This document shows positions 3,075 to 23,470 of a stretch of DNA of 54,776 nucleotides, piece by piece (the first letter of the stretch is position 1; each line of letters opens with the position of its first letter). Location: positions 1-54,776 of the forward strand of contig LUYE01000016.1 in assembly GCA_001602645.1 (NCBI GenBank), given 5' to 3'. The position numbers and the translations under genes were made by a program. The stretch comes from Methanosarcinales archaeon Methan_01. GTDB taxonomy: Archaea > Halobacteriota > Methanosarcinia > Methanotrichales > Methanotrichaceae. A model generated the notes under the pieces. It did no database searches. It was not told the origin of the DNA and saw only the letters and a program-made list of their open reading frames with translations.

Positions 3075-3335
3075 CTACTTCTCCTCCAGGACCATGGTGA
3101 TCGCACCCCGCGGGCATTCGTGGGCGCAGACGCTGCACCCCTTGCAATAGTCCAGATCCGGAACGAAGTTCCCCTCGATCTGGTGGATGCAGCTCTCGGG
3201 ACAGTAGATCTCGCAGAGGCTGCACTTGATGCACTTATCGTGATCGAAGACGGGAACGAAGGTCCTCCAGGCGCCGGTCTTGGTGATCTCGGTGCTCCCC
3301 GGCTCCACCACCATTTTAACTATACACCTAGTCAT
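3075..3335 (-). CDS. porD: Pyruvate:ferredoxin oxidoreductase, delta (ferredoxin) subunit
   Basis: An 86-residue 2x[4Fe-4S] ferredoxin-type subunit that passes electrons between the TPP centre of Por and soluble ferredoxin. Two classic cluster motifs are visible: [15 protein letters not shown] and [12 protein letters not shown]. The gene overlaps the end of porC by four bases and abuts porA, so the four por genes form one tight operon in the order C-D-A-B. Confidence 0.95.
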
Positions 3336-3871
3336 CGGCTGACCCCCTCGTAAGCGGTCTTTATGGCTGCCAGGTTCTTCTCACCGAGGGACCCGCTGAA
3401 CCGGCTCAATATGGCCTTGTTTATGCTCTCGAGGCTCACCTCGCCGGTGGCGCCGCAGAAGGCTCCGAGCAACGTCGTGTTGACGATGGGCCTCCCCAGC
3501 TTCTCGAGGGCGATCTTGGTGGCATCGATGGTGACGACATCCGCCTTGGTTTTGAGCTTGAGGTCTTTTGTATCCCTGTCGGTGTTTATGATTATCTTCC
3601 CCTCCGGCTTGAGGCCGCTCGCCACGTCGACGACCTCCAGGAGGGTGACGTCCTGGACGATGACATAATCGGGCTCGTAGATCTGGCTTCTGATCCGGAT
3701 CGGCTCGGATGCAATTCGGGTAAAAGCCATGACTGGAGCGCCTCGCCGCTCCACACCAAAGGCTGGAAAGGCCTGGGAGTACTTCTTATCCTCAAAAGCC
3801 GCAATCGCTATCAACTCAGCAGCAGTAACAGCTCCCTGGCCACCCCGGCCGTGAAATCGAATCTCCTTCAA
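3332..3871 (-). CDS. porC: Pyruvate:ferredoxin oxidoreductase, gamma subunit
   Basis: A 179-residue gamma subunit (PorC/PorG). It starts [20 protein letters not shown], the invariant N-terminus of this subunit. [16 protein letters not shown] at about residues 35-50 is the second signature. The start codon is TTG at 3871, chosen because GGAGGTCACCGG lies just upstream and homologues begin exactly here. It is the first gene of the por operon; a TATA-like sequence on the same strand lies at about 3913-3923. Confidence 0.94.
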
Positions 3872-3909
3872 CCGGTGACCTCCTCATCGGCGTGAGGCAG
3901 CGACAGGAT

Positions 3910-3962
3910 ATAGCCTTTTCGGAGATCGAGCCGACGGAGGCGCATCAGCACATTTTTATATC
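3910..3962. promoter_or_regulatory. Divergent promoter region between porC and the 3992 gene
   Basis: Two TATA-like boxes point away from each other. On the minus strand, AAAAGGCTATATCC (about 3912-3925) sits about 40-50 bases before the porC TTG. On the plus strand, CATTTTTATATC (about 3950-3961) sits about 30 bases before the ATG at 3992, which would give a very short leader. Positions are read by eye. Confidence 0.55.
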
Positions 3963-3991
3963 GGACGGGAGCGTAAGGAAAAGAGTTTCCC

Positions 3992-4714
3992 ATGAAGGAT
4001 GATGCTGAAGAGGAGAACGGCAAAGACGAAAGGGACTGTCAGGACGAGCTGCTCTTCGCGGTCAAGGCAGCCCAGCAGAGCCTCACCGAGGGGACCAGCC
4101 CCAACGTCCGGGAGGTCCTGGGCTTCGTCGAAGGGATGGCCCCCTTCCTGGACAGGGATACCCTGATCCAGCTCAAGTGCGCAAGCTGCGACAACTACGC
4201 CCCGTCCTTCTTCTCCGGAGAGGAAGAGTTCGGCGTCGTGGAGCCGCGAGCCTATTGCCACTCCAAACGGCAGCCTCTCCACCACCTCAACCTCTTCACC
4301 ATAGCCAAGTGCCTGGAACACTCCCGAGAGGGACAGGAAGAGCTGCTGGAGCTGGCGAACTCTGTGGTGGAGGAGGACCTCCGGCCAGCCCTCGCCGACA
4401 AGAAGCTCTACGACAGAAACGCCTTCGCCAGCTACGATGTGGACTACCGGACGATCTCCAAGCGGAGCATGGTCTGCATAGTCTTCGGCCACGATGACGA
4501 GGGCGAGTTCGTGGAGAGCGGGATCAGAGTTTGCATTCTGAGAAGGCTGGACCCGGGCTTCGGCGAGGATACCGCCAAGATCAGGGCGGTCCAGACCTAC
4601 GGCCGGCCCGTCATGGTGGTGATGGCCGCCCGCCAGATCCGGCGACAGATGGATATCGACGAGGTCTTCGAGGGGATCGCCGAGAAAAGGGAGATGGACA
4701 TCGTCTATCTCTGA
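3992..4714 (+). CDS. Unrecognised protein with Cys/His motifs
   Basis: A 240-residue soluble protein that I do not recognise. It has an acidic N-terminus, a KCASCDNYAP motif near residue 58 and AYCHSKRQPLHHL near residue 87, so a metal- or cluster-binding site is possible. The C-terminal half looks like an ordinary alpha/beta domain ending MDIVYL. No signal peptide or membrane segment is seen. It is transcribed alone, divergently from porC, behind a good TATA box. I considered a methanogen DUF such as DUF2115 but could not match its motifs. Codon use resembles that of its neighbours, so it is a real gene. Confidence 0.8.
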   Translation: MKDDAEEENGKDERDCQDELLFAVKAAQQSLTEGTSPNVREVLGFVEGMAPFLDRDTLIQLKCASCDNYAPSFFSGEEEFGVVEPRAYCHSKRQPLHHLNLFTIAKCLEHSREGQEELLELANSVVEEDLRPALADKKLYDRNAFASYDVDYRTISKRSMVCIVFGHDDEGEFVESGIRVCILRRLDPGFGEDTAKIRAVQTYGRPVMVVMAARQIRRQMDIDEVFEGIAEKREMDIVYL

Positions 4715-4771
4715 TCTCTTTTTGGCTTCGATCACAAGTACTAAATAACTAATTGAAGGATGTTTATTGCA

Positions 4772-6583
4772 ATGGCAGACTGCATTGTGCCCGATACGAG
4801 CGTGGTGATCGACGGCAGAGTTTCGGCCAGGGTCGCCTCCGGCGAATTTGAGGGCAAACGAGTGGTAGTCCCCGAGGCGGTGGTGGCGGAGCTGGAGGCC
4901 CAGGCCAACCACGGCCGCGAGACGGGGATCAAGGGGCTTGAAGAGCTGAGACGCCTCTCGGAGCTGGCGAAGGCCGGCAAGATCGAGCTGGAATACGTGG
5001 GAGTGAGGCCCGACCTGGACCAGATCAAGCTCGCCGGAGGCGGCGAGATCGACGCCATGATCAGGGACGTGGCCCTGGAGATCGGGGCCTATTTCCTCAC
5101 CAGCGACTCGATCCAGTCGAGGGTGGCGGGGGCGATGGGGCTCGAGGTGGAGTACGTCCGACCCCAAAGGGAGGAGATCAAGCCGATCTCCCTTGAGAAA
5201 TATTTCACCCCCGACACCCTCTCCGTCCACCTCAAGGAGGGGACGATCCCCATGGCGAAGAGGGGGAAGGTCGGAGAGTTCAACCTCGTCAAGATCGGAA
5301 ACAGGAGCCTCAGCGAGAGGGACCTCCGGGATATGGTGAGGGAGATATTCGAGAGGGTCAAGTCCGACCCGGGCGCCCACATCGAGATGGAGAAGATCGG
5401 CGCCGCCGTCGCCCAGCTCGGACCCATGAGAATCGCCATCGCTCGGCCCCCCTTCGCCGACGGCCTCGAGATAACGGCGGTGAGGCCCGTGGCCAAGGTC
5501 GACCTGGAGGACTACCGGCACAGCGACGAGCTGAAGGCGAGGCTGAAGGAGGCCCACCGGGGTATCATGATCGCAGGCCCCCCCGGCTCGGGGAAGTCCA
5601 CCTTCGCCGCTGGCGTCGCCAAGTACCTCCAGAAGTGCGACTACATCGTCAAGACCCTGGAAGCTCCAAGAGACCTCCAGGTCCCGGCGGAGATCACCCA
5701 GTACGGACCCCTGGAGGGGTCCATGGAGGCCTCGGCCGACATCCTCCTCCTGGTGAGGCCCGACTACACCATCTACGACGAGGTGAGGAAGACGAACGAC
5801 TTCCAGGTCTTCGCCGACCTGAGGATGGCGGGGGTCGGAATGATCGGGGTCGTCCACGCCAATAAGCCGATCGACGCCCTCCAGAGGCTGATCGGCAGGG
5901 TCGACCTGGGGATGATCCCCCAGGTGATCGACACCATCGTCTTCATCGAGAAGGGGGAGGTGACGAAGGTCATGGACGTCGAGTTCATGGTAAAGGTGCC
6001 CGCCGGGATGACCGAGGCGGACCTCTCCCGGCCCGTCATCGTCGTCAAGGACTTCGAGACCGGGAAGGCGGAGTACGAGCTCTACACCTATGGCGAGGAG
6101 ATCGTCGTCATGCCCATCTCCGCCGAGGGGAAGAAGCCCGCCTCCTGGGACCTCGCCTCCCTCCAGGTCCAGAAGGAGATGGCAACCCACCTCAAGGGAC
6201 CCTTCGAGGTGGAGATGATCAGCGACTCCTCGGCGGTGGTGAAGGTCCAGGAGAACGAGGCGGCGAGGATCATTGGAAAGTCGGGCAAGAGGATCGAGGA
6301 GATCGAGCGGACGCTGGGGATTCACATCGACGTCCAGACCTTCGACAGCCGGGAGGAGCCCCTGGCCCCCCACATCGAAGACACCGGCCGCCACCTGGCA
6401 ATCTGGGTCGGCGGAAAGCCCGGCGAGCGGGTCGAGATCTTCCTGGGAAAGGAGCCGGTCTTCACCGCCACCGTCGGCCGCCGAGGCGACATCCGGATGG
6501 TGAAGTCCTCAGACCTCGCCAAGCAGATCATGCTGAGGCTGAAGCACGGCGAGAAGCTGGAGGCGAGGAAGATCCGGGAGTGA
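4772..6583 (+). CDS. PINA-type ATPase: PIN, PilT/VirB11-like AAA and KH domains
   Basis: A 603-residue protein built as in archaeal PINA. Residues about 4-130 are a PIN nuclease-like domain starting CIVPDTSVVIDGR, with the acidic pair seen later in GGGEIDAMI and TSDS. An ATPase core follows, with Walker A GPPGSGKST at about 269-277 and the PilT-like VVHANKPIDAL. A KH RNA/DNA-binding domain with ARIIGKSGKRIEEIE lies near residue 495. Sulfolobus PINA is a hexameric ATPase that works with Holliday-junction proteins Hjc and Hjm. ATG 4772 (MADCIVPDT) has GAAGGATG about nine bases upstream; an in-frame ATG at 4760 is the alternative. Confidence 0.88.
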   Translation: MADCIVPDTSVVIDGRVSARVASGEFEGKRVVVPEAVVAELEAQANHGRETGIKGLEELRRLSELAKAGKIELEYVGVRPDLDQIKLAGGGEIDAMIRDVALEIGAYFLTSDSIQSRVAGAMGLEVEYVRPQREEIKPISLEKYFTPDTLSVHLKEGTIPMAKRGKVGEFNLVKIGNRSLSERDLRDMVREIFERVKSDPGAHIEMEKIGAAVAQLGPMRIAIARPPFADGLEITAVRPVAKVDLEDYRHSDELKARLKEAHRGIMIAGPPGSGKSTFAAGVAKYLQKCDYIVKTLEAPRDLQVPAEITQYGPLEGSMEASADILLLVRPDYTIYDEVRKTNDFQVFADLRMAGVGMIGVVHANKPIDALQRLIGRVDLGMIPQVIDTIVFIEKGEVTKVMDVEFMVKVPAGMTEADLSRPVIVVKDFETGKAEYELYTYGEEIVVMPISAEGKKPASWDLASLQVQKEMATHLKGPFEVEMISDSSAVVKVQENEAARIIGKSGKRIEEIERTLGIHIDVQTFDSREEPLAPHIEDTGRHLAIWVGGKPGERVEIFLGKEPVFTATVGRRGDIRMVKSSDLAKQIMLRLKHGEKLEARKIRE

Positions 6584-6718
6584 AGAGCTCCCCCTTCCTC
6601 CTCATCCCTCCCTTCCTCCGTCCCCGATCTCCTCATTTTAACCGCCTCGGCCTCATGCCGGCTCGGATTTTTTGGTTATTTTAAATTGTATATGTATATA
6701 TTCCCGGCCCGGCTGCCC

Positions 6719-7585
6719 TCAGATCCCCAGGGTCAGCCTGATGGTGTTTCTCACCGCCGGGGCGAGCCCCAGGGTCAGGAGGGCAAGGCGGGTCAGGCTC
6801 TCGAGGGACGGATCGTCCCGGAGGGCCCTCTCGACGAGGGCGAGGACGGGGATGAGGATCAGGAGCTTGAGGGGGAACATCACCAGGGCGGTCCCAGCGA
6901 GATCGATGAGGAGGCTTGGGACGACGTGCTTCTCGACGTAGCCGAACCAGTCCACCCCGACGTAGGTGGAGGCGGCGTCGAACATGTGGGCGAAGATGAG
7001 GAGGAGGTTGGGCCGCCCCGAGAGGGGGGCGATCTTGAGCTTCAACCCGGCCGCCGCCACCGCCAGGGTCGCCGCCGACCCGATGGCCAGGATCGCAAAG
7101 GGCGTCCAGGGGCTCTCCACCCCCAGGGTGGCGAGGAGGGCGAGGTTGGTCGCCGTCCAGGCGAGGCCGACGACGGCGTACCCGAAGATCCAGCGCTCCC
7201 CCAGGGCCCATCGGCTGAGGAGGAGGCCTGCCAGGGTCGCCACGGCGGCGAGGAAGTATATCAGCGGCGTAATCAGCAGATACTTGAGGGGAGCCGCCAC
7301 CAGCTCCGCGTCCTCGACGACCCGGAGGCTCGCCCCCGCCAGGATGTAGGGGACGGTGGCGAGGACGAACCGCTCGTCGATGGCGATCTCAAGCCGCCGA
7401 AATAGCCTGAGGAGAAGCAGGATCATGCCGCCCAAGAGGAGGGCCCAGGTGACGGTGTTGACGGGATTGTATCCGGTGTCGTAGAGGATGGGGTCGACGT
7501 AGTGATCGTATATCCAGGGGTGCAAGGGATCCCAGCTCCTGCCGAAGGCGGTCGATCTCGGACTGAAGGGTGTTGGTAGCGGCAT
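6719..7585 (-). CDS. DUF63 family polytopic membrane protein
   Basis: Up to 288 residues with about seven or eight hydrophobic segments, for example NTVTWALLLGGMILLLLRLF and LITPLIYFLAAVATL. The pair IDERFVLATVPYILAG and VDWFGYVEKHVVPSLLIDL is typical of the archaeal DUF63 family, whose function is unknown. The ATG at 7585 may be too far upstream because a TATA-like GGTATATTA (7586-7594) sits right against it. A TTG at 7525 would start the protein just before the conserved HPWIYDHYVDPI. It converges with the PINA gene, with 135 bases between them. Confidence 0.85.
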   Translation of the reverse strand: MPLPTPFSPRSTAFGRSWDPLHPWIYDHYVDPILYDTGYNPVNTVTWALLLGGMILLLLRLFRRLEIAIDERFVLATVPYILAGASLRVVEDAELVAAPLKYLLITPLIYFLAAVATLAGLLLSRWALGERWIFGYAVVGLAWTATNLALLATLGVESPWTPFAILAIGSAATLAVAAAGLKLKIAPLSGRPNLLLIFAHMFDAASTYVGVDWFGYVEKHVVPSLLIDLAGTALVMFPLKLLILIPVLALVERALRDDPSLESLTRLALLTLGLAPAVRNTIRLTLGI

Positions 7586-7727
7586 GGTATATTAGAGGAT
7601 CGTTCTGGGGAATGGAGAAAGGGGGATCAGAGGCCGATGAGGGGAGGAAGCGGGGGGATGAGATGGAGAGGACGGATCGAGGCTATAGACAGCGCTTATC
7701 CTCATCGGGAGCGGGAAGGGCGCGGAA

Positions 7728-7738
7728 GATTTATATAG
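7728..7738 (+). promoter_or_regulatory. TATA box of the proteasome beta gene
   Basis: GATTTATATAG in a GC-rich surround, 55 bases before the psmB start, with the purine-rich GGGCGCGGAA just upstream as a possible B-recognition element. It implies transcription starting near 7762 and a leader of about 30 bases. Confidence 0.65.
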
Positions 7739-7792
7739 TGATGGTGGCGAAGGGAGTTCGTCCGTTTTCTGATTTTAATTCGAGGTATTTAG

Positions 7793-8416
7793 ATGGTCGA
7801 GGTGTTCAAAGGCACAACTACGGTGGGAATCGTCTGCAAGGATGGTGTAGTCCTCGCTTCGGAGAGCCGGGCTACCATGGGCCACTTCATCGCCAGCACC
7901 ACAGCCCAGAAGATATACCAGATCGCCGACCGCGTCGGCCTGACCACCGCGGGAGTGGTCGGCGACGCCCAGTCCCTCGTCAGGATGATCCAGGTCGAGT
8001 CCAGGCTATACAACATGCAGAGGGGCGAGCCGATGACGGTAAAAGGGACGACCTCCCTCCTCTCCAACGTCCTCTCCTCTAGGCGATACTTCCCCTTGAT
8101 GGTCCAGCTCCTCCTCGGCGGGGTGGACAAGAAGGGGCCCCAGCTCTTCTCCCTGGACGCCCTGGGCGGCTCGATCCAGGAACAGAAGGTGGTGGCCACG
8201 GGATCCGGCTCCCCCACAGCCTACGGCGTCCTGGAGGCCCTCTACGACCCCGAGATGACCGTCGAGGAGGGGATGAAGCTGGGGATCCGCGCCATCCACA
8301 ACGCCATGAAGAGGGATTCCGCCTCGGGTGACGTCATTCAGGTGGTCAAGATCACCGCCGAGGAGTATGAGGTGGAGGATGAGTCCGCTGTGGAGAAGAT
8401 CCGGCAGGCGCTCTGA
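7793..8416 (+). CDS. psmB: Proteasome beta subunit, archaeal 20S
   Basis: A 207-residue catalytic subunit of the archaeal 20S proteasome. The propeptide is only MVEVFKG; autocleavage after Gly7 would expose Thr8 of TTTVGIV as the N-terminal nucleophile. Counting the mature threonine as 1, Lys33 is present ([10 protein letters not shown]). Position 17 is Glu rather than the more common Asp; I recall the same change in other Methanosarcinales. It is followed 28 bases later by the aCPSF1 gene, a common euryarchaeal arrangement. Confidence 0.96.
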
Positions 8417-8444
8417 AAAATAAACTTTTTTTGGATGGGTTTAA

Positions 8445-10352
8445 TTGTCTGTTGAGGAAGTGCTCCTTGAGCTCAAGCGGAGGGTACAGACCAAACTGCC
8501 TCCGAACATAAACGTCACCGGCATAGAATTCGAGGGCCCCGAGCTGGTAATATACACCGACGACCCGAGAAGGCTGGCGGACGATGGAGAGATAGTCCGA
8601 TCCCTAGCAAAAGATCTGAGAAAGAGGGTGGTGGTGAGGCCGGACCTGAAGGTCCTGGCAGACCCGGAGGGAGCGGTCAAGAAGATCCAACAGGTGGTCC
8701 CCCCCGAGGCGGGGCTGACCAACTACTACTTCGACAGCGAGACCGGGGAGGTGGTGATCGAGGCGGAGAAGCCGGGGCTCGTGATCGGTCGGCACGGTGC
8801 CACCCTCAGGGAGATCACAAAGCTGATCGGCTGGACCCCGAAGGTGGTGAGGACGCCGCCGGTCCGGTCCGCCACCATCGCCAACACCAAAGAGTACCTC
8901 CGGTCCGTCCAATCCGAGAGGAAGGAGATCCTCAAGACGATCGGCAGGAGGATCCACCGGGATGTCGCCTCGAAGGATCAGTGGGTGAGGATAACTACCC
9001 TCGGCGGGTGTCGGGAGGTCGGCAGGAGCTGCATGCTCCTCTCGACCCCTGAGTCGAAGATCATCGTCGACTGCGGCGTAAACGTCGGCTCCGACGACAG
9101 TGCGACGCCGTACCTATACGTACCCGAGGTATACCCCTTAAACCAGATCGACGCCGTCGTCCTCACCCACGCCCACCTGGACCACGCCGGCCTCGTCCCG
9201 ATGCTCTACAAGTACGGCTATGAGGGGCCGATCTACTGCACCCCCCCCACCAGGGACCTATTTGTCCTCCTCCAGCTCGACTACATCGACATCGCCGGAC
9301 GCGAGGGGAAGAGGATGCCCTACGAGTCGGCGATGATCCGGGAGGCTCTTAAGCATACCATCACCCTGAACTACGGCGACGTCACCGACATAGCCCCCGA
9401 TACGAAGCTCACCATGCACAACGCCGGCCACATCCTCGGCTCTGCCATCTGCCACTTCCACGTGGGAGACGGCCTCTACAACGTCGCCTTCACCGGGGAC
9501 TTCAAGTTCGAGAAGACGAGGCTCTTCGACCCCGCCGTCCACTCCTTCCCGAGGCTGGAGACCCTGGTGACGGAGGCGACCTACGGCGGATCGAACAGCA
9601 CCCAGCCCTCTCGGAAGGAAGCCGAGGTGAGGCTCCTGAAGGTCGTCCGGGATACCATAAAGCGGGGCGGAAAGGTGATCATCCCCGCCTTCGCCGTCGG
9701 CAGAAGCCAGGAGGTGATGATAGCCCTGGAGGAGGCTATCAGGAAGAAGTCCCTCGACGAGATCAGCGTCTACCTCGACGGGATGATCTACGAGGCGACG
9801 GCGATCCATACATCGTATCCCGAGTACCTGAACAACGAGCTCAGGGACCTGATCTTCCACAAGGGGATCAACCCCTTCCTCTCGGAGTGCTTCGTCCAGG
9901 TGGAGACCTCAAACCAGAGGGCGAAGATCGTGGAGGGCGACCCCTGCGTCGTCCTGGCGACGAGTGGGATGATGAATGGCGGGCCGATCCTGGAGTACCT
10001 GAAGGCCCTCGGCCCCGACGAGCGGAATACCCTGGTGATCGTCGGCTACCAGGCGGAGGGGACCCTCGGCCGCCGGATCCAGAAGGGGTGGAACGAGGTC
10101 CCCCTCTCCGCCGAGGGGAGGACCCAGACCGTCAAGATCAACCTGGAGGTGGTCACCGTCGACGGCTTCTCCGGCCACTCGGACCGAAACCAGCTGATGG
10201 ACTACATCAGGAGGGTCTACCCCAAACCCTCGAGGGTGATCACAAACCACGGCGACGAGGCGAACTGCCTCGACCTCGCGAGCTCCATCTACAAGAAACA
10301 CAGGATACCGACGATGGCGCCGATGAACCTGGAGACGGTGAGGCTCGTCTGA
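8445..10352 (+). CDS. fttA: aCPSF1/FttA, KH-domain metallo-beta-lactamase ribonuclease and termination factor
   Basis: A 635-residue archaeal CPSF1 orthologue, a beta-CASP nuclease that cleaves nascent RNA at U-rich sites and terminates transcription. Residues about 1-145 hold two KH-like modules, with [15 protein letters not shown] in the second. The metallo-beta-lactamase domain shows [10 protein letters not shown] at about 243-252, followed by FTGDFKFE and the beta-CASP insert. The C-terminal [13 protein letters not shown] carries further metal ligands. The start is TTG at 8445; no in-frame ATG precedes the conserved LLELKRRVQ region. Length and layout are normal. Confidence 0.95.
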
Positions 10353-10363
10353 TCCGGGCTGGA

Positions 10364-10424
10364 GGGGGCTTTTAGGCCCCGGGGGCCGGGGGATGGGGCG
10401 GCCCCATCCCTCCGCCGCCTTTTG
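10364..10424 (+). terminator. Stem-loops downstream of fttA, ahead of the regulator gene
   Basis: Two adjacent inverted repeats lie in the 156-base gap: GGGGGCTTTTAGGCCCC (10364-10380) and GGATGGGGC-G-GCCCCATCC (10391-10409). A short T run (CCTTTTGATG) follows at 10419. They could form terminator hairpins for fttA. The second, nearly uninterrupted repeat could instead be an operator for the regulator starting at 10509. Confidence 0.45.
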
Positions 10425-10508
10425 ATGACGAATCCGGCATTTTGGGCGACGGGTTCCTCAAAAGATTTATCAAATTTGAGCGCCAATGGGCGGACGAGGT
10501 TTTGTGCG

Positions 10509-11024
10509 ATGGGAAAGAGAACTCGGATCATCAACGATCCCTCAGATCTGGTTCCTCTGCTCCTGGCTTTCGGTTCAGAAGTTCACAAACGGGTCTTCGA
10601 AGAGCTCTGCGAGGATTGGCGGACGGAGGCGGAGCTCTCGGAGCTCATGAGCGACGAGAGGGGGGTTCATAGGAGCCTCGAGCTTCTGAAGAAGAGCGGC
10701 CTCGTGGAGACGAAGTGGAAGATGCCGAAGCCCGGGGAGAGCCCGGAGAAGGAGTACCATTCCAGCTACTCCCGGGTCCAGGCGAACTTCGTATGCCCCC
10801 TGGAGGATCTGAGCGAGCTTATATACATCACCTCGATGTCGGATGATGAGCTCCGGGATACGACCGAGAGGATCCGAGAGATCGTCGCCAACGGCAACAC
10901 CTCCCTCTCCAACCTGTCTCGAGAGCTGAATCTCAGCCAGGCCTTCATAAGAGGGGCTGCCAAACGGGCGGAGGGGCTCGCCGTCAGAGGCCAGAGGATC
11001 GAGCTCTCCAAGGATGAGGGTTGA
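10509..11024 (+). CDS. ArsR-like winged-helix transcriptional regulator
   Basis: A 171-residue protein with two putative winged-helix regions: LVPLLLAFGSEVHKRVFEEL leading into an HTH ending HRSLELLKKSGLVE, and LSNLSRELNLSQAFIRGAAK at the C-terminus. This resembles archaeal ArsR-type regulators. The start at ATG 10509 is chosen over upstream in-frame codons because TATA-like GATTTATCAAA lies near 10465. It is directly followed (3 bases) by a second regulator, so the two are probably co-expressed. No ligand-binding cysteines are obvious; the target genes are unknown. Confidence 0.78.
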   Translation: MGKRTRIINDPSDLVPLLLAFGSEVHKRVFEELCEDWRTEAELSELMSDERGVHRSLELLKKSGLVETKWKMPKPGESPEKEYHSSYSRVQANFVCPLEDLSELIYITSMSDDELRDTTERIREIVANGNTSLSNLSRELNLSQAFIRGAAKRAEGLAVRGQRIELSKDEG

Positions 11025-11027
11025 AGA

Positions 11028-11816
11028 ATGGTAGACGTTCTACAGAGCAAGAGGGACAGCTCGCGGTTTCAGATCCTGGTGGAGATCGCCGCCAACCAGC
11101 CGAACGTCCGGCAGAAGGAGGTGGCGGAGAGGCTCGGCGTCACCCCCCAGGCGATCTCCGAGTACATCAAGGACCTGGTTGCCGACGGGCTTGTCGTATC
11201 CGACGGGAGGATGAGGTACCGGATCACGAAAGAGGGGGTGGAGATGCTCCTGGAGAGCGCCGCCGAGCTGAAACGGTACGCGAGATACGTCATGGAGGAG
11301 ATCATAAGCCACGTCTCCGTCTGGGGAGCCATCGCCGACCTCGACCTCGAGGAGGGGGAGACCGTCTCCCTGGAGATGAGGGGCGGCCTCCTCTACGCCG
11401 GCAGGAAGGAGGGGGTCGAGGCGAGCGGGGTGACCATCGCCGAGGCCCGGGCCGGGGAGGACGTGGGGGTCTCAAACCTCAAGGGGCTGATCAGCCTCAA
11501 GGAGGGGACGGTCACCGTCTGCAAGGTCCCCCGGGTCCAGATGGGCGGCTCCCGGAAGGTGGACCTCGCGGCCCTCTCCAGGATCGTCCTCGCCAGCGAG
11601 ATGGTGGGGGCCCTGGGGATAGAGTCCCTCGTCGCCCTCAGGAAGGTCGGCCGGGATCCGGACGTCTTCTTCGGGGCTAAGGAGTCGGCGGTGGAGTCGG
11701 CCTTCCACGGGGTATCCTCGGTGATCGTCTGCGTCGACGAGCAGGTTCCAAACCTCATGGGGAGGCTCGAGGGCGAGGGGCTGAAGTACGAGCTCGTCGA
11801 CCTCACCGCCTCCTGA
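11028..11816 (+). CDS. MarR/HTH-type transcriptional regulator with C-terminal effector domain
   Basis: A 262-residue protein. Residues about 10-65 form a winged HTH (QKEVAERLGVTPQAISEYIK, then DGLVVSDGRMRYRITKEG). Residues about 95-262 are an alpha/beta domain with a TVTVCKVPRVQMGG strand that may bind a small ligand. This architecture occurs in a family of predicted archaeal regulators whose ligands are unknown. It sits between the 10509 regulator and a Ski2-like helicase (10 bases downstream), so regulation of RNA or DNA processing is possible, but that is inference. Confidence 0.78.
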   Translation: MVDVLQSKRDSSRFQILVEIAANQPNVRQKEVAERLGVTPQAISEYIKDLVADGLVVSDGRMRYRITKEGVEMLLESAAELKRYARYVMEEIISHVSVWGAIADLDLEEGETVSLEMRGGLLYAGRKEGVEASGVTIAEARAGEDVGVSNLKGLISLKEGTVTVCKVPRVQMGGSRKVDLAALSRIVLASEMVGALGIESLVALRKVGRDPDVFFGAKESAVESAFHGVSSVIVCVDEQVPNLMGRLEGEGLKYELVDLTAS

Positions 11817-14673: not shown

Positions 14674-15210
14674 TCACAGAAGGTAGTCTATCGACACCTC
14701 AGCCCCGTCCAGATCGTAGCCGATAACCTCCACCACCAGTGATCCCTCCTCCTCGACGACGGAGACTTCGAGCCCCTCCGAGGCGGTGACGGCCGACGGC
14801 GTCGCCTCTTTGGGGAGATAGAAGGCCAGATGGCACTCCTCCCACCAGCCGTCAGCCTCAAATTCGAGGGTCGTCACCCCATCTCGGATCGACGTCAGGG
14901 CGTCGCTCAGGGCGTAGAGCTCCCCGAGATCCTCGTCGTACTCGACCTCGGAGCCCGCGAGGAAGGCGAGGTCGTCGAGGCTATCGGCCTTCAGGTAGCC
15001 GACGATCAGGGCCCTTCCTCCATCGTCGATATATGCGTCCAGAAGGATGCTCCCAAAAGCCGATCCAGCCTCGCTGCCACCTCCGGCGACCGCCTCGTCT
15101 CGCCCCGAGGCCGGGGCGAGGGCGAGGAGGATCAAGAGGGCGATCAATGGGAACGATCCGCCGGCCGAGCCCCAGCGTCCGGGGCGGTCTCTGAGATCTC
15201 TTCCGATCAA
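14674..15210 (-). CDS. Secreted protein: free-standing copy of the extracytoplasmic sensor domain
   Basis: A 178-residue predicted secreted protein. Residues about 19-35 (FPLIALLILLALAPASG) form a signal-peptide core behind an Arg-rich start. Residues about 50-178 are clearly homologous to the sensor domain of the regulator at 16289-17326: both share a GY.K...LAFL.GS pattern, a YDE...LYA..ALT pattern, FYL, EGL and VVE..GYD in order. Here there is no membrane anchor and no HTH. The start is TTG at 15210, following GAGGGG. It is 12 bases after the upstream gene on the same strand, hence an operon of two. Confidence 0.75.
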   Translation of the reverse strand: MIGRDLRDRPGRWGSAGGSFPLIALLILLALAPASGRDEAVAGGGSEAGSAFGSILLDAYIDDGGRALIVGYLKADSLDDLAFLAGSEVEYDEDLGELYALSDALTSIRDGVTTLEFEADGWWEECHLAFYLPKEATPSAVTASEGLEVSVVEEEGSLVVEVIGYDLDGAEVSIDYLL

Positions 15211-15222
15211 CTCGAAGACCCC

Positions 15223-16164
15223 TCAGATCCCTAAGGCCGGGGGAAGAGGCCGATCCAAACCCCCTCCAACCATGGCCGGGCCGCATCCCCATCCAGGCCC
15301 TCCGAAGAGCCCCGGGGAGGAGGGAGAGAGGCCCAGGTCCAGGAGGATCAGATCGAGGGGGTCTGGCCGCCGGGGGCCGAGGTGAGAGAACGGTCCGCCG
15401 ACCGAGCTCCGGGCTGCTGCGACCGGGTCCCACCCGGGGCCTCCGGGTGCCAGCCCCCATCCGGAGGTAATGCCCGCCAGGGGGCATCCCTCCATCCCTA
15501 CCCCTGCACCGATGGAGGGGTCCAGGATGACGGCGTAGCTTCCGGCATAGGGGCCGCTGAAGACCAGGAGGCTTCCGACGCTGATCTCCGATCCGTTCTG
15601 CTGGAGGATCTCGACGGTGAGCTTGCCCACCATCTCCGGCCCCGACCCGGGGGAGGGGATCGCCCCCCATCCCCCCGCCGGCACCATCAGGTCCGCCTCC
15701 AGGGTGGTCGTCCCCCCCTCCAAGGTGACGTTGAGGCGGTCGAGGAGGTAGGGGGCCCGGCCGAGGCGGAGGTTCCCCCGGTAGCTGTAGGCCCCGTCCT
15801 CCCCCTCGATCTCCTCCTTGATCTCTCCCAGGGTCCGGTTCTCTCCCAGGAGCCTCCGGACCCGGGATGGGTCGACGCCTCTCACCCTTTCGACCTGCAG
15901 CCTCACAGGCAGAGCCTCGTCTTCAGAACTGAAGGCAAACCCCACCTCCGAGATGAAGATCGATATCAGTATCCCAGGTCCGTCCCCGTGGCAGCCGATC
16001 CCGGCGATCTGGTATGCTACGGGACAAGGGCCCCCCTCCCTCAGCCCGTCCCCGATGCATGCCGGGGCGTCGAATGTCAGGGGCTCTCCCGCTCCAATAA
16101 CGCCCCCTAGGATCAGGGCCGCCACTCCCAGCCAGAGGCCCCTCCGGATCGGATGGCCCGTCAA
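15223..16164 (-). CDS. Secreted protein of unknown function
   Basis: A 313-residue protein that I do not recognise. Residues 1-25 are a signal peptide (RRGLWLGVAALILGGVIGAG). Cysteines in PACIGDG, GPCPVAY and IGCHGDG near the mature N-terminus may form disulfides or bind metal. The middle part is rich in beta strands (GKLTVEILQQNGSEISV). The last 100 residues are Gly/Pro-rich with little structure and may be a wall-spanning or degenerate tail. The TTG start at 16164 has GAGGTGATGAC directly upstream. It precedes the free sensor-domain gene in the same operon. Confidence 0.65.
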   Translation of the reverse strand: MTGHPIRRGLWLGVAALILGGVIGAGEPLTFDAPACIGDGLREGGPCPVAYQIAGIGCHGDGPGILISIFISEVGFAFSSEDEALPVRLQVERVRGVDPSRVRRLLGENRTLGEIKEEIEGEDGAYSYRGNLRLGRAPYLLDRLNVTLEGGTTTLEADLMVPAGGWGAIPSPGSGPEMVGKLTVEILQQNGSEISVGSLLVFSGPYAGSYAVILDPSIGAGVGMEGCPLAGITSGWGLAPGGPGWDPVAAARSSVGGPFSHLGPRRPDPLDLILLDLGLSPSSPGLFGGPGWGCGPAMVGGGLDRPLPPALGI

Positions 16165-16288
16165 GTCATCACCTCTTCCAGACTCTCAAAACCTCGCCGT
16201 CCCCGATTTGGGGGTACTTCTGACCCGGCCACCCCGCAGAATTGGGGGCGTCCGGCAGGGATATCCGACCACCATGCCTCCACCGCCG

Positions 16289-17326
16289 TCATCTCCCCCC
16301 CCAGTTTAGCCGCTCGGAGAGCTCGATGACGTTGGTCCTTCCCCGTTCCTTCTTCGTCACGATATTTCTCCTCTCAAGAGAGACTATGATCCCGGTTAGG
16401 GAGGATTTGGGGATCCCCGTCTCGTACCTGATATCCGCCTGAGTCATCTTCCCCTCGTGCTTTATGAGAGCCTCCAAGACCGACCTTTCCCTCTCGGTGA
16501 GGGTATCCATCACCGCCACCATCTCCGCCGAGATCGAGGCGGCGATGGTGGCCTCGGGGGCAGGAAAGGCTGCCTCGACGGGGCCCGAAGATTGGAGGGG
16601 GGCTTCCTCCGAAACCATCTGATCTTGCTCATCCTCGGCCTCCGGGAGCCCGAAGACCGGGGCCGCCGTCTCGGATTCAAAAGCCACCTCATCCGCTGGA
16701 GGCGAGGCTGCCTCCTTACGCCCTCGGACCATGACCGCGGCGACGATCAAGAGGGCGACGAGGAGGCCCCCCCCCAGGAGGAGGGAGAGGCTGGAGGGTT
16801 TCGGCGTCGGGAGGGCCGCAGCCTCTGCTTCGGCGCCTGAGACCGGCTGGCGGTACATGACGGCGGCCCCGGGATTCGTCACGTCGTAGCCGTGGAACTC
16901 CACCACAAAGGAGTCGCTAGAGGAGGAGACGAGGTAGTCGAGCCCCTCGGTCCCGGAGATGTTGGTGAGCTGGACGTTCTCTGATAGATAGAAGGTGACG
17001 TGATACTCGCCGTAGCTCCCTTCAGCGGATAGCCGGATCTCCCAGTCGTCCCCGCTCTTTTTGGTGAGGGCGTTGGTCACCGCGTAGAGCTGGAGGGCGC
17101 CCTCGTCGTACTGGTAATCGGAGCCGTTGAGAAAGGCGAGGCCAGCGATGCTCTTCGCATATCCGGTGACCAGTGCCTTCCCGGCGTCGTCGGCATATAT
17201 GTCCAGGACGAGACCCCCCACTTCGTCGATCTCGGCCCCTGATGCGAGAAAGGCCGGGCTGATAAGGACTGCGGCGACTGCGAAGAGGGTCAGAGTCCAT
17301 CGGCAGAGGCTGTACTTCTCCGTCAT
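16289..17326 (-). CDS. Membrane-anchored winged-helix regulator with extracytoplasmic sensor domain
   Basis: A 345-residue one-component signalling protein. Residues 1-31 are a signal peptide or first helix, and about 32-165 are an outside beta-rich domain. Residues about 180-201 are a membrane helix (LLLGGGLLVALLIVAAVMV), followed by an acidic Ala/Pro-rich cytoplasmic linker. Residues about 275-340 are a winged HTH with LTERERSVLEALIKHEGKMT and GIPKSSLTGIIVSLERR. The order outside sensor, helix, inside DNA-binding domain resembles the DUF7345/DUF7343-type archaeal regulators. ATG 17326 is chosen because GAAGGAGATCG precedes it; the open frame extends further but without signal-peptide logic. 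It is divergent from the surface protein at 17507. Confidence 0.8.
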   Translation of the reverse strand: MTEKYSLCRWTLTLFAVAAVLISPAFLASGAEIDEVGGLVLDIYADDAGKALVTGYAKSIAGLAFLNGSDYQYDEGALQLYAVTNALTKKSGDDWEIRLSAEGSYGEYHVTFYLSENVQLTNISGTEGLDYLVSSSSDSFVVEFHGYDVTNPGAAVMYRQPVSGAEAEAAALPTPKPSSLSLLLGGGLLVALLIVAAVMVRGRKEAASPPADEVAFESETAAPVFGLPEAEDEQDQMVSEEAPLQSSGPVEAAFPAPEATIAASISAEMVAVMDTLTERERSVLEALIKHEGKMTQADIRYETGIPKSSLTGIIVSLERRNIVTKKERGRTNVIELSERLNWGGR

Positions 17327-17364: not shown

Positions 17365-17400
17365 GTGGTCGAATATATTTAAGATTTGGGCATATAGAAT
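17365..17400. promoter_or_regulatory. Divergent promoter between the anchored regulator and the surface protein
   Basis: An AT-rich island (GAATATATTTAAGATTTG, about 17372-17389, then GCATATAG) in a 180-base intergenic gap. Read on the minus strand, CTTAAATATATTC is a good TATA box about 45-55 bases before the regulator start at 17326. On the plus strand GCATATAGAATT could serve the 17507 gene with a longer leader. The regulator's own operator may be here, but I see no clear inverted repeat. Confidence 0.5.
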
Positions 17401-17506
17401 TCAATGAAAAGGGCACCCCAGGCGATGATGAGACGCCCGGGATGCGAGACGAACCTCGGCCCTCCTCATAGACGCATAATTGATAAACGATCAGGTTCAA
17501 CTAGAG

Positions 17507-18760
17507 ATGCTCTACATGACCGGGAAGTATTATCGCATCGGCATGGGCCTGGGGCTGTTCCTCTCGCAGGTCTTCCTCCTCCTGATGACCTCCGCCTTCA
17601 TCCCAGGGGCGGCAGGCCTAGAGGCGAACGAGTACGGCGAGATCGACGATACCCCAGAAGCCCCGAATCCTGCGACCTCCGAAGAGGCGGCGAGCCCTGC
17701 CGTCTCCGAGGGCCCAGAAGCCGATGAGGAGGCCTCGGAGCCGACGGTTCCGTTGGAGGAGCCGAGATCATCTCCCGAGGCGGATGGCTCCGGGGAGGGT
17801 TTGGCGGCCGAGATCGGCTCGTTGGAGACTAACGAGACGACCTCCCCGGAGGAAGAGGCGGCAGAGCCGACGATGGCCGAGGCGATCGTATACGTCTTCA
17901 ACCGAGACGACGACACCCTGAGCATATCCCTCTTCATAGACTCGGAGCTGGCGGGTACCGAGGAGGTCTCCAAGGATAAGGAGAAGAAGTTCGGGAGCTA
18001 TGAGCTCGAGGCCGGATCCCACGACTTCAGGATCAGCTGGTGGGACGATGACACCAAGATGACCTACCAGGAAGATCTAGCAGCCTCGGTGGAGGGAACG
18101 ACGGCGGTCACCCTCTATGCGGCCGAGAACACGGAGCCGGAGGAGTTCGAGGTGACGGTGATGTTGAGGAACGACAACGACGAGGACCTGGAAGCCTACC
18201 TCTACATCGACGGCCTCTACGAGAAGATGAAGACCGCGAAGAAGACGAGCACCACCGACTTCGGCAAGTTCGACATGGAGGAGGGGACCCACGTCCTGGC
18301 GGTGAGGTGGCAGGACCCGGCGACCAAGATCGAGTACGAGAAGAGGAAGACCCTCAGGGTTGACGGAAAGGACGCCGTCACCTTCTACGCCCCGGCGGGG
18401 ATGGCCTTCGAAGGGGCAGAAGAGGCGAAACAGACGACCTCATCGAAGACTTCCAGCCCATCCTCCTCGGCTAAGGCCGAGACCTCATCCGAGGCGAAAG
18501 AGCCGTCGTCCCCGACGAAGGGCGGGGGCGAGGTGGGAGAAGCCTCCGCCAGCCCCGCGGTCGGCGATCAGAAGGAGAGATCGTCAGAATCCCGAGATGT
18601 TGGAGTTGGAGGGGCGGAGACGGTGGAGAAGGCAGATACAGCGATCGGCCGCGAGGCAGAGCCTCATGAAGCGGAAGAGTCGGATTCGTCGCGGGAGACG
18701 ATCCTGATATCCGCCCTCGGGGCGATCCTCGCCATCTACCTCCTATTCTTCAGGCGTTGA
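17507..18760 (+). CDS. Membrane-anchored surface protein with two tandem beta domains
   Basis: A 417-residue protein of unknown function. An N-terminal signal (GMGLGLFLSQVFLLLMTSAF) is followed by an acidic Glu/Ala/Ser/Pro-rich spacer (about 35-120). Two related beta domains of about 90 residues come next. The first runs from AIVYVFNRDDDTLSISLFID to AVTLYA, the second from VTVMLRNDNDEDLEAYLYID to AVTFYA. A second low-complexity Ser/Lys/Glu spacer leads to a C-terminal helix TILISALGAILAIYLLFFRR. ATG 17507 is favoured by AGGTT ten bases upstream; ATG 17516 is also possible. Its stop is 4 bases before the next gene, so the two are co-transcribed. Confidence 0.75.
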   Translation: MLYMTGKYYRIGMGLGLFLSQVFLLLMTSAFIPGAAGLEANEYGEIDDTPEAPNPATSEEAASPAVSEGPEADEEASEPTVPLEEPRSSPEADGSGEGLAAEIGSLETNETTSPEEEAAEPTMAEAIVYVFNRDDDTLSISLFIDSELAGTEEVSKDKEKKFGSYELEAGSHDFRISWWDDDTKMTYQEDLAASVEGTTAVTLYAAENTEPEEFEVTVMLRNDNDEDLEAYLYIDGLYEKMKTAKKTSTTDFGKFDMEEGTHVLAVRWQDPATKIEYEKRKTLRVDGKDAVTFYAPAGMAFEGAEEAKQTTSSKTSSPSSSAKAETSSEAKEPSSPTKGGGEVGEASASPAVGDQKERSSESRDVGVGGAETVEKADTAIGREAEPHEAEESDSSRETILISALGAILAIYLLFFRR

Positions 18761-18764
18761 TCCG

Positions 18765-20318
18765 ATGAGAGTTCTCCTGGCATATCTGCTCCTGACATCG
18801 ATGATCGGGACGGCGGTGGAGTGGGGGGACCGGGTCGAAGGGGAGCTCCGATGGGGAGAGACCCTCCAGCTCGGGGATTATTCCCTGGAGGCTGCGGACT
18901 TCACCCCCGAGGATAAATCGCCGCGGATGGTGATGCTGAACCTTCGGAAGGGTGGAGAGCTGATCGCCACGAGGCCCCTGAAGTCGGGAGAGAGCTTCAC
19001 CATCGACGACGAGGTGATGGTTGTAGCCGGCGATGTTATGATGATAGACTACCTCCTGGACGGGTCGGCGGAGCCGAAGGCATCGGTCTCCCTCCTCCTC
19101 CGAGCGGTCCCCGACCTCCAGATCCGGGTCGTCTCGAAGGAGGATTCTTACCGGGGAGGCGACCGGGCGAAGGTCGAGGTCGAGGTCGAGAACGTCGGAA
19201 TGACGGAGGCGGAGGACGTGAAGCTGGAGGTGAACTTCGACCCCGAGATCGCAGGAGAGAGGTTTTCGATATCGAACCTCGCCCCGGGCGATGTCTGGGA
19301 CGAGGACCCTTCAACCCGGAAGGTCGATCCCCTGGAGGTGAACTTCAGGGTCCCGTCGGTGGCGGGGCCCCAGGTGGTCCGGGTCGAGGCTCGGGCCCGG
19401 TACCTCGACACCGAGGGAGGGGTTCACGAGTCGGTGGGCGGGACGAGCTTCGACCTCTTCGGCCCCCTCAGGGTCTTCAAGTATGCGGATGACGAGATCA
19501 GGTTCGGCGAGGAGAGCTACGTCCACCTCTCCGTCAGCAACGGCGGTGACAGGAGCCTGGTGGTCGCCCTAACCGACTCGGCGGGTCGAGATTTTAAGAC
19601 GGATTCCTCCCTGGAATGGAAGATGACGATACCGCCGGGGGAGAGCAGAACCGCCAGCTACACCGTCGATGCTAAGAAGCCTGGGGATGGGCAGACCCTC
19701 CCGCCCGCCGAGGCCACCTACTCCGTCGACGGCACTATTTATAAGGTCAAGTCGTCGAGCCCCGTCGTCGATGTCATCGGACCTCTGGTGGAGGTGGCCA
19801 AAGGTGCATCCTCCGCCAGAGTCAGGCCGGGGGAGACGGTGACGGTGACGGTGACCGCAAAGAACGTCGGGAACCGGAGGACGAAAGCCTCTCTGAAGGA
19901 GACCGTCCCGGCATGGGCGACCCTCGTCGCGGGGGAGACGGAGATCAACCCTCTCCTCTTGCCAGGGGAGGAGGCGGCGATCGTCTACACCATATCCTGC
20001 CGGGATCCGGGTAGCTACGAGATCCCGGCGACGGCCGTCTGTTACCGGGACGACCGAGGAACCGCCTGCACCCTGGAATCCTCGCAGCTGAGGATAGCCG
20101 TAGAGGAGGAGGAAGAGGAAGCTCCGACCGACGATGGCGGTATGGGGGCCGCCCCGGAGGAAGCCCCCATCCCTTCCGGTCAGGTCGAGGGGACAGCATA
20201 TAAAGGCGATATCAGCAGGGCCGGCGGCCGGGACGAAGTCGCTCGCGATCCTCGGATCTTCTGGGCCCTGCCGGCTCTGATCCTGATCATATTCATCGCC
20301 TTCGATCGCTACCTATGA
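18765..20318 (+). CDS. Membrane-anchored S-layer-type protein with CARDB/NEW3-like domains
   Basis: A 517-residue protein with a signal peptide at 1-18, a small N-terminal beta domain, then repeated immunoglobulin-like domains. KVEVEVENVGMTEAEDVKLE and VTVTVTAKNVGNRRTKASLK are the edge strands typical of CARDB/NEW3-like modules in archaeal surface proteins (COG1361 group). A Glu-rich spacer (about 450-480) precedes the C-terminal membrane helix FWALPALILIIFIAFDRYL, so the protein faces outwards on the cell membrane. It probably takes part in envelope architecture or binds a partner; no enzyme motif is present. It directly follows the tandem-domain surface protein. Confidence 0.78.
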   Translation: MRVLLAYLLLTSMIGTAVEWGDRVEGELRWGETLQLGDYSLEAADFTPEDKSPRMVMLNLRKGGELIATRPLKSGESFTIDDEVMVVAGDVMMIDYLLDGSAEPKASVSLLLRAVPDLQIRVVSKEDSYRGGDRAKVEVEVENVGMTEAEDVKLEVNFDPEIAGERFSISNLAPGDVWDEDPSTRKVDPLEVNFRVPSVAGPQVVRVEARARYLDTEGGVHESVGGTSFDLFGPLRVFKYADDEIRFGEESYVHLSVSNGGDRSLVVALTDSAGRDFKTDSSLEWKMTIPPGESRTASYTVDAKKPGDGQTLPPAEATYSVDGTIYKVKSSSPVVDVIGPLVEVAKGASSARVRPGETVTVTVTAKNVGNRRTKASLKETVPAWATLVAGETEINPLLLPGEEAAIVYTISCRDPGSYEIPATAVCYRDDRGTACTLESSQLRIAVEEEEEEAPTDDGGMGAAPEEAPIPSGQVEGTAYKGDISRAGGRDEVARDPRIFWALPALILIIFIAFDRYL

Positions 20319-20344: not shown

Positions 20345-21544
20345 ATGAGACCCGACGATCCTCGCCACTTTCGGGCAGCCTCCTCAAGCCGCCCCGCCAT
20401 CGCCGCCGCCCTCCTGGGGGGGGCTCTGGTGGTCCTGATGCTCCAGCCCGCCCTCGGCCAGGCGCCGGACCTCTCGTGGGAGAAGTCCTTCGGCGGACCG
20501 GGGGACGAAAGGGGGATCTCCCTCCTGGAGACGGCCGACTCCAGCCTGGCGGTCGTCGGCTACACCTCCTCCAAAGGAGACGGTGGCAGGGACCTCTGGC
20601 TGATCAAGACCGATTCGGAGGGGGAGCTGGAGTGGGATCGGGCGATCGGAGGCCCCGGCGACGAGGAGGGGTGGTCCCTCCTGGGGACGGAGGACGGATA
20701 TGTCATCGCTGGGGTCTCGGGCTCCGGGGAGGCCGGCGGAAAGGACCTCCTCCTCGTCAAGACCTACTCCGACGGCTACGAGAGGTGGACGAAGACCTTC
20801 GGAGGTCCGGGCGACGACTGGGGGGTCGCCGCGGTGAAGACGGAGGCGGGATACGTCGTCGCCGGGTCCACCACCTCCCGAGGCTCCGGAGGCTCTGACG
20901 GCTGGATCCTTCTGGTCGACCCCGACGGAAACCTGGTGTGGGAGGTCGCCATCGGCGGCTCGAAGAACGACGGATTTTCGTCGATCGTGGAGGTGGAAGA
21001 CGGCTACGTCGCCGTTGGGACCACCGAGTCCTACGGGGCGGGAGGGAGGGACGTCTGGCTAGTCAAGGCCGACGGCGAGGGGAAGAGGGTATGGGAGAAG
21101 ACCTTCGGGAAGGACGGCGACGAGAGGGGGAACTCCGTCCTGAAGATGGCGGACGGCTATATCATCGTCGGGACATCGTCCGCCGATGCCCCGGGTGGAA
21201 GGGACCTCCTCCTCCTCAAAACCGACCTGGAGGGCGAGAAGGTCTGGGAGGAGACGATCGGGGGCCCCGGCGAAGACGGCGGCTGGCAGGCCCTGGTGGA
21301 TGAGGACGGCGGCATCGTCGTCGTCGGCTACACCAGGGGGGCTGGCGACGAGGATATCTGGCTCCTGAAGGTCAGCTCCGTCGGCGAAAAGCTCTGGGAT
21401 GACGCCTTCGGGGGGGAGGGCTTCGACCTCGGAAGGTCGATCGTCCCGACGAAGGACGGGGGATGGGCGATGACCGGCTGGACGGAATCCGGGGGCCCGA
21501 GGGGCCAGGACCTCTGGCTCGGAAAGGTCGAGAGGGGAGGATGA
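20345..21544 (+). CDS. Secreted seven-repeat beta-propeller protein
   Basis: A 399-residue exported protein. A long basic N-terminus and hydrophobic core (AAALLGGALVVLMLQPALG) form the signal. Seven repeats of about 50 residues follow, each reading W.K.FGG.GDD.G.S....DGY...G.T.S.G.GG.D.WL.K.D..G, starting near residues 46, 98, 149, 200, 251, 302 and 352. Seven such units make one closed propeller. No catalytic or anchor motif is seen, so binding or scaffolding is the likely role. An AT-rich block reaches to the ATG, so the message may be leaderless. Its stop overlaps the methyltransferase start (ATGA). Confidence 0.8.
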   Translation: MRPDDPRHFRAASSSRPAIAAALLGGALVVLMLQPALGQAPDLSWEKSFGGPGDERGISLLETADSSLAVVGYTSSKGDGGRDLWLIKTDSEGELEWDRAIGGPGDEEGWSLLGTEDGYVIAGVSGSGEAGGKDLLLVKTYSDGYERWTKTFGGPGDDWGVAAVKTEAGYVVAGSTTSRGSGGSDGWILLVDPDGNLVWEVAIGGSKNDGFSSIVEVEDGYVAVGTTESYGAGGRDVWLVKADGEGKRVWEKTFGKDGDERGNSVLKMADGYIIVGTSSADAPGGRDLLLLKTDLEGEKVWEETIGGPGEDGGWQALVDEDGGIVVVGYTRGAGDEDIWLLKVSSVGEKLWDDAFGGEGFDLGRSIVPTKDGGWAMTGWTESGGPRGQDLWLGKVERGG

Positions 21545-22483: not shown

Positions 22484-22888
22484 ATGATGAAGATCAGAGT
22501 CGTCAGTTCGAAGAAGGAGATAGACCAGCTCAACCGGAATGAACAGATGATCCACCTGGCCTTTAGAGCGTCCAACACCGACATATTCAGGCTCCTCCAG
22601 GCCTGTCCCAGGCTGAGAGCGATCCAGGTCCCATCCTCCTACTACAAGACCATGTCCCACGCGGGCCAGATGTTCTTGGAGATGCAGGGGATAGAGATCG
22701 TCGAGGGGGACGTCTGGGGCCACCGGAAGGACATAGACGAATACTACACCGTAGACGACAAGGTGATAGAGAGGATAAACAGCCTCCAATCCGAGGGGAT
22801 GAACCACGACGAGATCGCCAGCAAAGTCTCGAGGGAGTCGAAGCTATCGCCGGCCATGGTCAAGTACATGATAAAACAGGCGACCTGA
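22484..22888 (+). CDS. DUF1699 family protein, first copy
   Basis: A 134-residue protein of the Methanosarcinales-restricted DUF1699 family (function unknown). It starts MMKIRVVSSKKEIDQL. The conserved block is RLRAIQVPSSYYKTM and IEIVEGDVWGHRKDIDEYY. The C-terminal 40 residues (INSLQSEGMNHDEIASKVSR) look like a helix-turn-helix with the pattern of a resolvase-type recognition helix, so nucleic-acid binding is plausible. It is about 65 percent identical by eye to the second copy 177 bases downstream. Confidence 0.85.
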   Translation: MMKIRVVSSKKEIDQLNRNEQMIHLAFRASNTDIFRLLQACPRLRAIQVPSSYYKTMSHAGQMFLEMQGIEIVEGDVWGHRKDIDEYYTVDDKVIERINSLQSEGMNHDEIASKVSRESKLSPAMVKYMIKQAT

Positions 22889-23065
22889 GGAAGCCGGAAT
22901 GTCTCCATCCACTGCCGCGCCGACGGCTATCGCCCCATTACAGTCGGGGTTCCTGGGGGGATTGGTCCGACGGCGTCTCGGAGGAGGCGTTGCGGCCTCC
23001 TGCCGCCATTTCGACGGCATCAAGGGCGGCTTCATAGATACCGTTCTTGGTTTGGAGGGTCGTAT

Positions 23066-23470
23066 ATGATAAAGATCAGGATCGTCAGTTCAAAAGATGA
23101 TATAAACGACCTCACGAGGAGCGATCATACAGTTCATCTGGCCTACAGGGCCACCAGCACCGACATGTTCAGGCTCCTCCAGTACAGTCCCCGGCTCCGC
23201 GCCGTCCAGGTCCCGCCCTCGTACTACAGGAATATGCCCAACACCGCCCGGGCCTTCCTGGAGACTCAGGGGGTGGAGATCATCGAGGGAGACGTCTGGG
23301 GTCATCGAAAGGACATCGACGAGTACTTCGTCGTCGACGACGAGATGATAGGGAGGATAACAGACCTCCAGTCAGGCGGCCTGAAAGTCGAAGAGATCTC
23401 ATCGAGGATATGCTGGGAGTCGAAGCTATCGCCGGCAATGGTCAACTACATCATCAAGCAGAGGACTTGA
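23066..23470 (+). CDS. DUF1699 family protein, second copy
   Basis: A 134-residue paralogue of the preceding gene, exactly the same length and collinear throughout. It starts MIKIRIVSSKDDINDL and contains RLRAVQVPPSYYRNM and EGDVWGHRKDIDEYF. Differences cluster in the N-terminal helix and the putative HTH (GLKVEEISSRICWES versus GMNHDEIASKVSRES), suggesting that specificity has diverged. GGAGGG lies upstream of the ATG. No clear TATA box was found in the 177-base gap, so it may be read from the first promoter. Confidence 0.85.
   Translation: MIKIRIVSSKDDINDLTRSDHTVHLAYRATSTDMFRLLQYSPRLRAVQVPPSYYRNMPNTARAFLETQGVEIIEGDVWGHRKDIDEYFVVDDEMIGRITDLQSGGLKVEEISSRICWESKLSPAMVNYIIKQRT

Follow-up and report, generated by a model that had tools for sequence, protein, structure and literature searches.

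A transmembrane regulator of Methanothrix-family archaea, its secreted neighbor and a free copy of its sensor domain

Introduction

What might a regulator's sensor domain do as a separate, secreted protein encoded close to the regulator itself? The question is raised by three genes on the minus strand of the window, i.e., the whole stretch of 54,776 nucleotides from Methanosarcinales archaeon Methan_01 (contig LUYE01000016.1) that was analyzed here. They encode a transmembrane transcription regulator (REG), a secreted protein (SECR2) and a secreted free copy of the REG sensor (SOL). How archaea read signals from outside the membrane is, to our knowledge, poorly understood.

Results

REG (345 aa; 16289-17326, minus strand, ATG at 17326) is composed, in order, of a signal segment, a beta sensor domain, one transmembrane helix, a linker and a C-terminal winged HTH. 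The sensor spans residues 35-160 approximately (16847-17224, minus strand; profile match 16844-17224). The membrane helix (residues about 183-207; 16706-16780, minus strand) coincides with a weak TM-region match at residues 185-204 and is retained among orthologues; it is followed by the residues RGRK, consistent with a sensor outside and a C-terminus inside. The winged HTH (residues 276-336; 16319-16501, minus strand) matched DUF7343 (E 5.2e-14) and MarR_2 (E 6.6e-7), both above cut-off, and REG is the sole DUF7343 match at E <= 0.001 in its own genome. These matches, together with hydropathy, support the topology given in the original prediction, namely an outside beta domain, one membrane helix and an inside winged HTH. 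Signal segments and membrane helices were called from hydropathy throughout, gene starts were set mechanically, and several of the genomes are fragmented. No Pfam or NCBIfam family scored above cut-off for the sensor, no sequence relatives of it were found in the PDB, and DUF7343 was not mentioned in the literature searched.

SOL (178 aa; 14674-15210, minus strand, TTG start) consists of a signal segment and the REG sensor domain alone. The two sensors share 38% identity over 124 aa (E 2e-25), as expected from the earlier claim that the small protein is the regulator's outside domain, and the shared motifs that were listed then align in register. A search of the genome with REG returned, besides REG itself, only SOL (E 2e-20), and the free copies from four genomes of the genus are 37-41% identical to REG. 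SOL was modelled as an all-beta protein (pLDDT 93); the best matches of the model, to a yeast oligosaccharyltransferase subunit (E 7e-3, TMq 0.53-0.62), were not significant and were not used. The core of the sensor fold is preserved in SOL (L41, Y44, G55, F65, L80-A82, L87 and G146). T54, T84, T88, Y131 and the juxtamembrane Q160, all invariant or nearly so in REG, have been lost, and SOL may therefore no longer bind the same thing as the REG sensor.

Between REG and SOL lies SECR2 (15223-16164, minus strand; conserved domain at about 15511-15978), on which the original prediction did not remark. The SOL start is 12 bp past the SECR2 stop. SECR2 is modelled with eight beta strands and, following strand 2, a pair of helices (pLDDT 85). 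Foldseek matched the model weakly to barrels, calycin-like ones and their relatives, with nitrophorin as the best (E 0.018); for fHbp the probability reached 0.97 but TM was below 0.4. TM was at most 0.40 among the matches listed and none was significant, so the model gives a hint of a calycin-like barrel rather than a fold assignment. No Pfam or NCBIfam family scored above cut-off for SECR2. Homology to the sensor was rejected (hhalign Prob 0.1, E 0.52). A CAP-repeat chain in the PDB gave a marginal, partial match (E 8e-4, about 29 columns, with no stretch passing alone), which was not used. The C-terminal tail (15223-15470, after about residue 230) is rich in G and P and varies in length and sequence among orthologues, which may reflect drift of the reading frame in GC-rich DNA.

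A REG orthologue is present in all nine genomes of the genus and SOL in four, which share the order REG-SECR2-SOL. The other five have no free sensor match even though their contigs continue beyond SECR2, and these absences therefore look genuine. Across the family, the sensor domain occurs in 50 of 50 genomes, and free copies of ~150-200 aa were found in 23 genomes from six genera (g1, g4, g5, g7, g8 and g11). These 23 are the genomes whose neighborhoods were read, leaving out G024, in which the candidate free sensor was a REG cut by the contig end. All six g9 genomes have a single sensor match each (REG) and no SOL. Since SOL is absent from these six as well as from five genomes of the genus, it is dispensable for the regulator. 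In a sample of 393 genomes from the phylum, the sensor domain was confined to the Methanothrix family (f1), f11, f6 and a single case in f38; outside the Methanothrix family no free sensor was found in this sample, and full-length matches sit in regulator-sized frames. The named loci with a sensor belong to Methanothrix/Methanosaeta/Methanocrinis, Methanophagales (ANME-1) and Methanoperedens, and no free sensor was found in the latter two.

SECR2 lies downstream of REG on the same strand in 64 of 71 informative named loci (those with room to see SECR2). The spacing is within 100 bp or overlapping in 32 of the 64, across all three lineages; seven loci with enough room have no SECR2 near REG. 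The SOL start follows SECR2 by 4-40 bp in 18 of 18 named loci. A SECR2-SOL pair is detached from REG in G012, G048 and G049 (genera g5 and g11), and several genes separate it from REG in G011. SOL had been expected to sit beside the regulator in relatives, and its distance from REG is no more than 5 kb in 18 of 23 SOL-bearing genomes. The co-occurrence of REG and SOL thus holds; however, the constant partner of both is SECR2. SECR2, which accompanies REG on the one hand and SOL on the other, is thus the link between the two, and since it follows REG in three lineages while SOL is restricted to the Methanothrix family, the conserved unit is REG-SECR2. Shared gene sets do not prove binding.

G015 has three REG paralogues in tandem (L082, G015:C1:2942000-2958000; 3952-11039). 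A separate secreted protein is encoded ahead of each of them, and two of these proteins have TPR repeats. It looks as though the related sensors take their input from different secreted partners, so that what the sensor reads would be a secreted protein. Some ANME-1 genomes carry a pair of REG genes, back to back and abutting (L142, L150 and L153), and in L150 and L153 SECR2 comes after the second. The space between REG and SECR2 is occupied in genera g8 and g9 by secreted proteins whose helical units repeat an N-M-T-L-x-E-I-like motif (L067:5654-6421, L069:6593-7300 and L085:5005-5691).

The simplest view of SOL is that it derives from a duplication of the REG sensor within the Methanothrix family and was lost more than once. 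On a tree built from 69 sensor domains, 2 changes account for the SOL label, compared to a shuffled mean of about 20, and a single SOL clade is not rejected (AU p 0.43). That SOL is the derived form follows from its absence in the outgroup lineages, ANME-1 and Methanoperedens; it is the later duplicate, placed behind SECR2. SOL pairs have dN/dS values of 0.15-0.46, like those of REG and SECR2, and by this measure SOL is under purifying selection. Its branches are long in G014 and G012.

The region between REG and the divergent gene SEC426 contains two blocks that are conserved in nine genomes. The first, CCCAAATCTTAAATATATTCG (17370-17390, minus strand), is the probable BRE/TATA promoter of REG, judging from the archaeal consensus. 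The second, ATCRTTTATSAATYRTRCGT, lies at the divergent promoter; in the window this block, ACGCATAATTGATAAACGAT (17472-17491, plus strand), is a probable TATA of the divergent operon and a possible operator. Its degenerate consensus has one exact match per genome (9/9), and no other copy with <3 mismatches was present in any of the nine genomes; other sites at 3 mismatches were at about control level. Because the block has no second close site, no regulon could be read off, and control by REG may be local if REG binds there.

SEC426 itself (17480-18760, plus strand; likely real start 17516) is an exported protein with a C-terminal TM segment. The original prediction had pointed to a divergent exported gene next to the regulator, and this gene is real and present in all nine genomes of the genus. 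It is followed by a CARDB/DUF11-repeat surface protein with a C-terminal TM segment (18765-20318, plus strand; also 9/9) and a secreted SBBP/delta-60-type beta-repeat protein (20345-21544, plus strand). An envelope-sensing role would fit these secreted neighbors. Further along the window, 22484-23470 holds two tandem 134-aa paralogues, >60% identical to each other's orthologues, and the pair is kept in the seven genomes of the genus whose loci cover this interval.

Discussion

We propose that REG is a one-component regulator, SECR2 a secreted co-sensor and SOL a soluble competitor, a proposal that we hold tentatively and whose chances as a whole we put somewhat short of even. The outside beta domain of REG would report through its one membrane helix to the cytoplasmic winged helix. 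SECR2 would probably bind the REG sensor and supply or present the signal, in a role that may be likened to those of ToxS, TcpH and VtrC for ToxR, TcpP and VtrA. SOL most likely would still bind the partner of the sensor (probably SECR2, or its ligand) and, as a soluble competitor, could buffer the signal and set the threshold of REG. The likely target of REG would be the adjoining divergent promoter region and hence the neighboring exported proteins. The sequences themselves show gene linkage, conservation, the domain architecture, the homology and purifying selection. What we infer is the binding of SECR2 to REG and to SOL and, beyond it, the direction of regulation, the ligand, the target and the regulon.

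SECR2 and SOL might instead be on the output side, as envelope proteins expressed under REG, such as a surface component or a shuttle associated with export of the MacB type. REG would then sense the state of the envelope, and SOL would share the sensor fold by descent only. This reading, which we consider unlikely, draws on the MacB-type transporters that adjoin both SECR2 paralogues and REG. Of nine Methanoperedens-like loci (grouped by hand, as were the ANME-1-like loci, from locus titles and sequence likeness), eight have a MacB-type permease next to REG-SECR2, as do some Methanothrix-family genomes. In the genome of the window, a MacB-type ABC transporter gene set comes directly after two SECR2 paralogues, one of which has no evident signal segment (L196, G000:C4:8500-20000; 2193-6270), and the same arrangement is found in G005 (L198). 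However, MacB transport was rejected as a universal neighbor of REG: it is lineage-specific, and most of the ANME-1 and Methanothrix loci have no MacB close to REG. A sensing pair would, moreover, be expected to look like this, with one regulator and one secreted protein that stay linked from lineage to lineage. Proteins similar to the N-M-T-L-x-E-I repeat proteins described above also precede the SECR2 paralogues in G000:C4.

The original prediction offered ligand carrier, decoy and co-receptor as possible roles of SOL; competition for SECR2 is the one that we favor. As a ligand carrier or co-receptor, SOL would bind the small ligand of the REG sensor and deliver or display it to REG, with SECR2 being a separate matter. 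SOL is secreted, keeps the residues of the sensor fold core and is usually found within 5 kb of REG, all of which would suit such a function. However, SOL is tied more tightly to SECR2 than to REG, including in the detached SECR2-SOL pairs, the REG-invariant T84 and T88 are not kept, and many genomes do without SOL. We regard this alternative as distinctly unlikely. It is very improbable that SOL is merely drifting or decaying after duplication and plays no part in signaling: its absence from five of nine genus genomes and g9 and its long branches in G014 and G012 would agree with decay, but intact frames with signal segments persist in six genera, and the dN/dS values and the fixed place behind SECR2 already disfavor it.

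The proposed co-sensing arrangement has parallels among known systems. REG carries a DNA-binding domain and at least one membrane helix in a single chain, two features of transmembrane transcription regulators (TTRs); these are single-pass proteins with a predicted DNA-binding domain and a membrane helix in one chain, and are reported to be common in archaea (Demey et al. 2023, PMC10269533). In the co-component systems ToxR/ToxS and VtrA/VtrC, the membrane regulator has an extracytoplasmic partner, encoded after it, that has a lipocalin-like barrel (Kinch et al. 2022, PMC9214523; PMC4933562). There, too, the partner gene comes after the regulator, is unrelated to it and often has short or overlapping spacing. 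We read REG-SECR2 as analogous to these pairs, to which no homology was detected. VtrC (PMC4933562) resembles the SECR2 model in its eight strands, although the barrel match of SECR2 was not significant. ToxR and VtrA have an N-terminal CadC-type HTH and a C-terminal sensor, whereas REG has the opposite order, with a C-terminal, MarR/DUF7343-like winged HTH. In addition, the REG sensor is all-beta and archaeal, and the third gene is a free copy of the sensor. Because topology and HTH class differ, we do not claim membership in the co-component systems. A broader reading would have an archaeal co-component system of separate origin from ToxRS/VtrAC, in which a membrane regulator works with a secreted barrel co-sensor. 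ANME-1, Methanoperedens and acetoclastic Methanothrix would share it, and in Methanothrix a soluble sensor duplicate that competes for the co-sensor would tune it; taken jointly, these elements make a possible but doubtful case.

ArnR and ArnR1 of Sulfolobus acidocaldarius are, like REG, archaeal membrane-bound one-component regulators, and they control surface structures (PMC6396743). Unlike REG, they have an N-terminal HTH, a HAMP-like region and a sensing domain close to the membrane anchors, and neither a secreted partner nor a free sensor copy appears in the parts of that article available to us (PMC6396743). No description of the REG sensor family with a secreted partner and a free sensor copy was found in the literature searched, and novelty is judged here against this limited set and general knowledge.

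In these acetate-using, methane-making archaea, the REG-SECR2(-SOL) set seems to represent a mode of cell-surface sensing not yet described for archaea. If the proposal is correct, signals from outside would reach a transcription factor with no kinase involved, by way of a two-gene cassette that archaeal methane producers growing on acetate share with archaeal methane oxidizers. The soluble sensor copy would be a tuner added by the Methanothrix family. REG, SECR2 and SOL form a small, defined set of proteins whose binding is directly testable.
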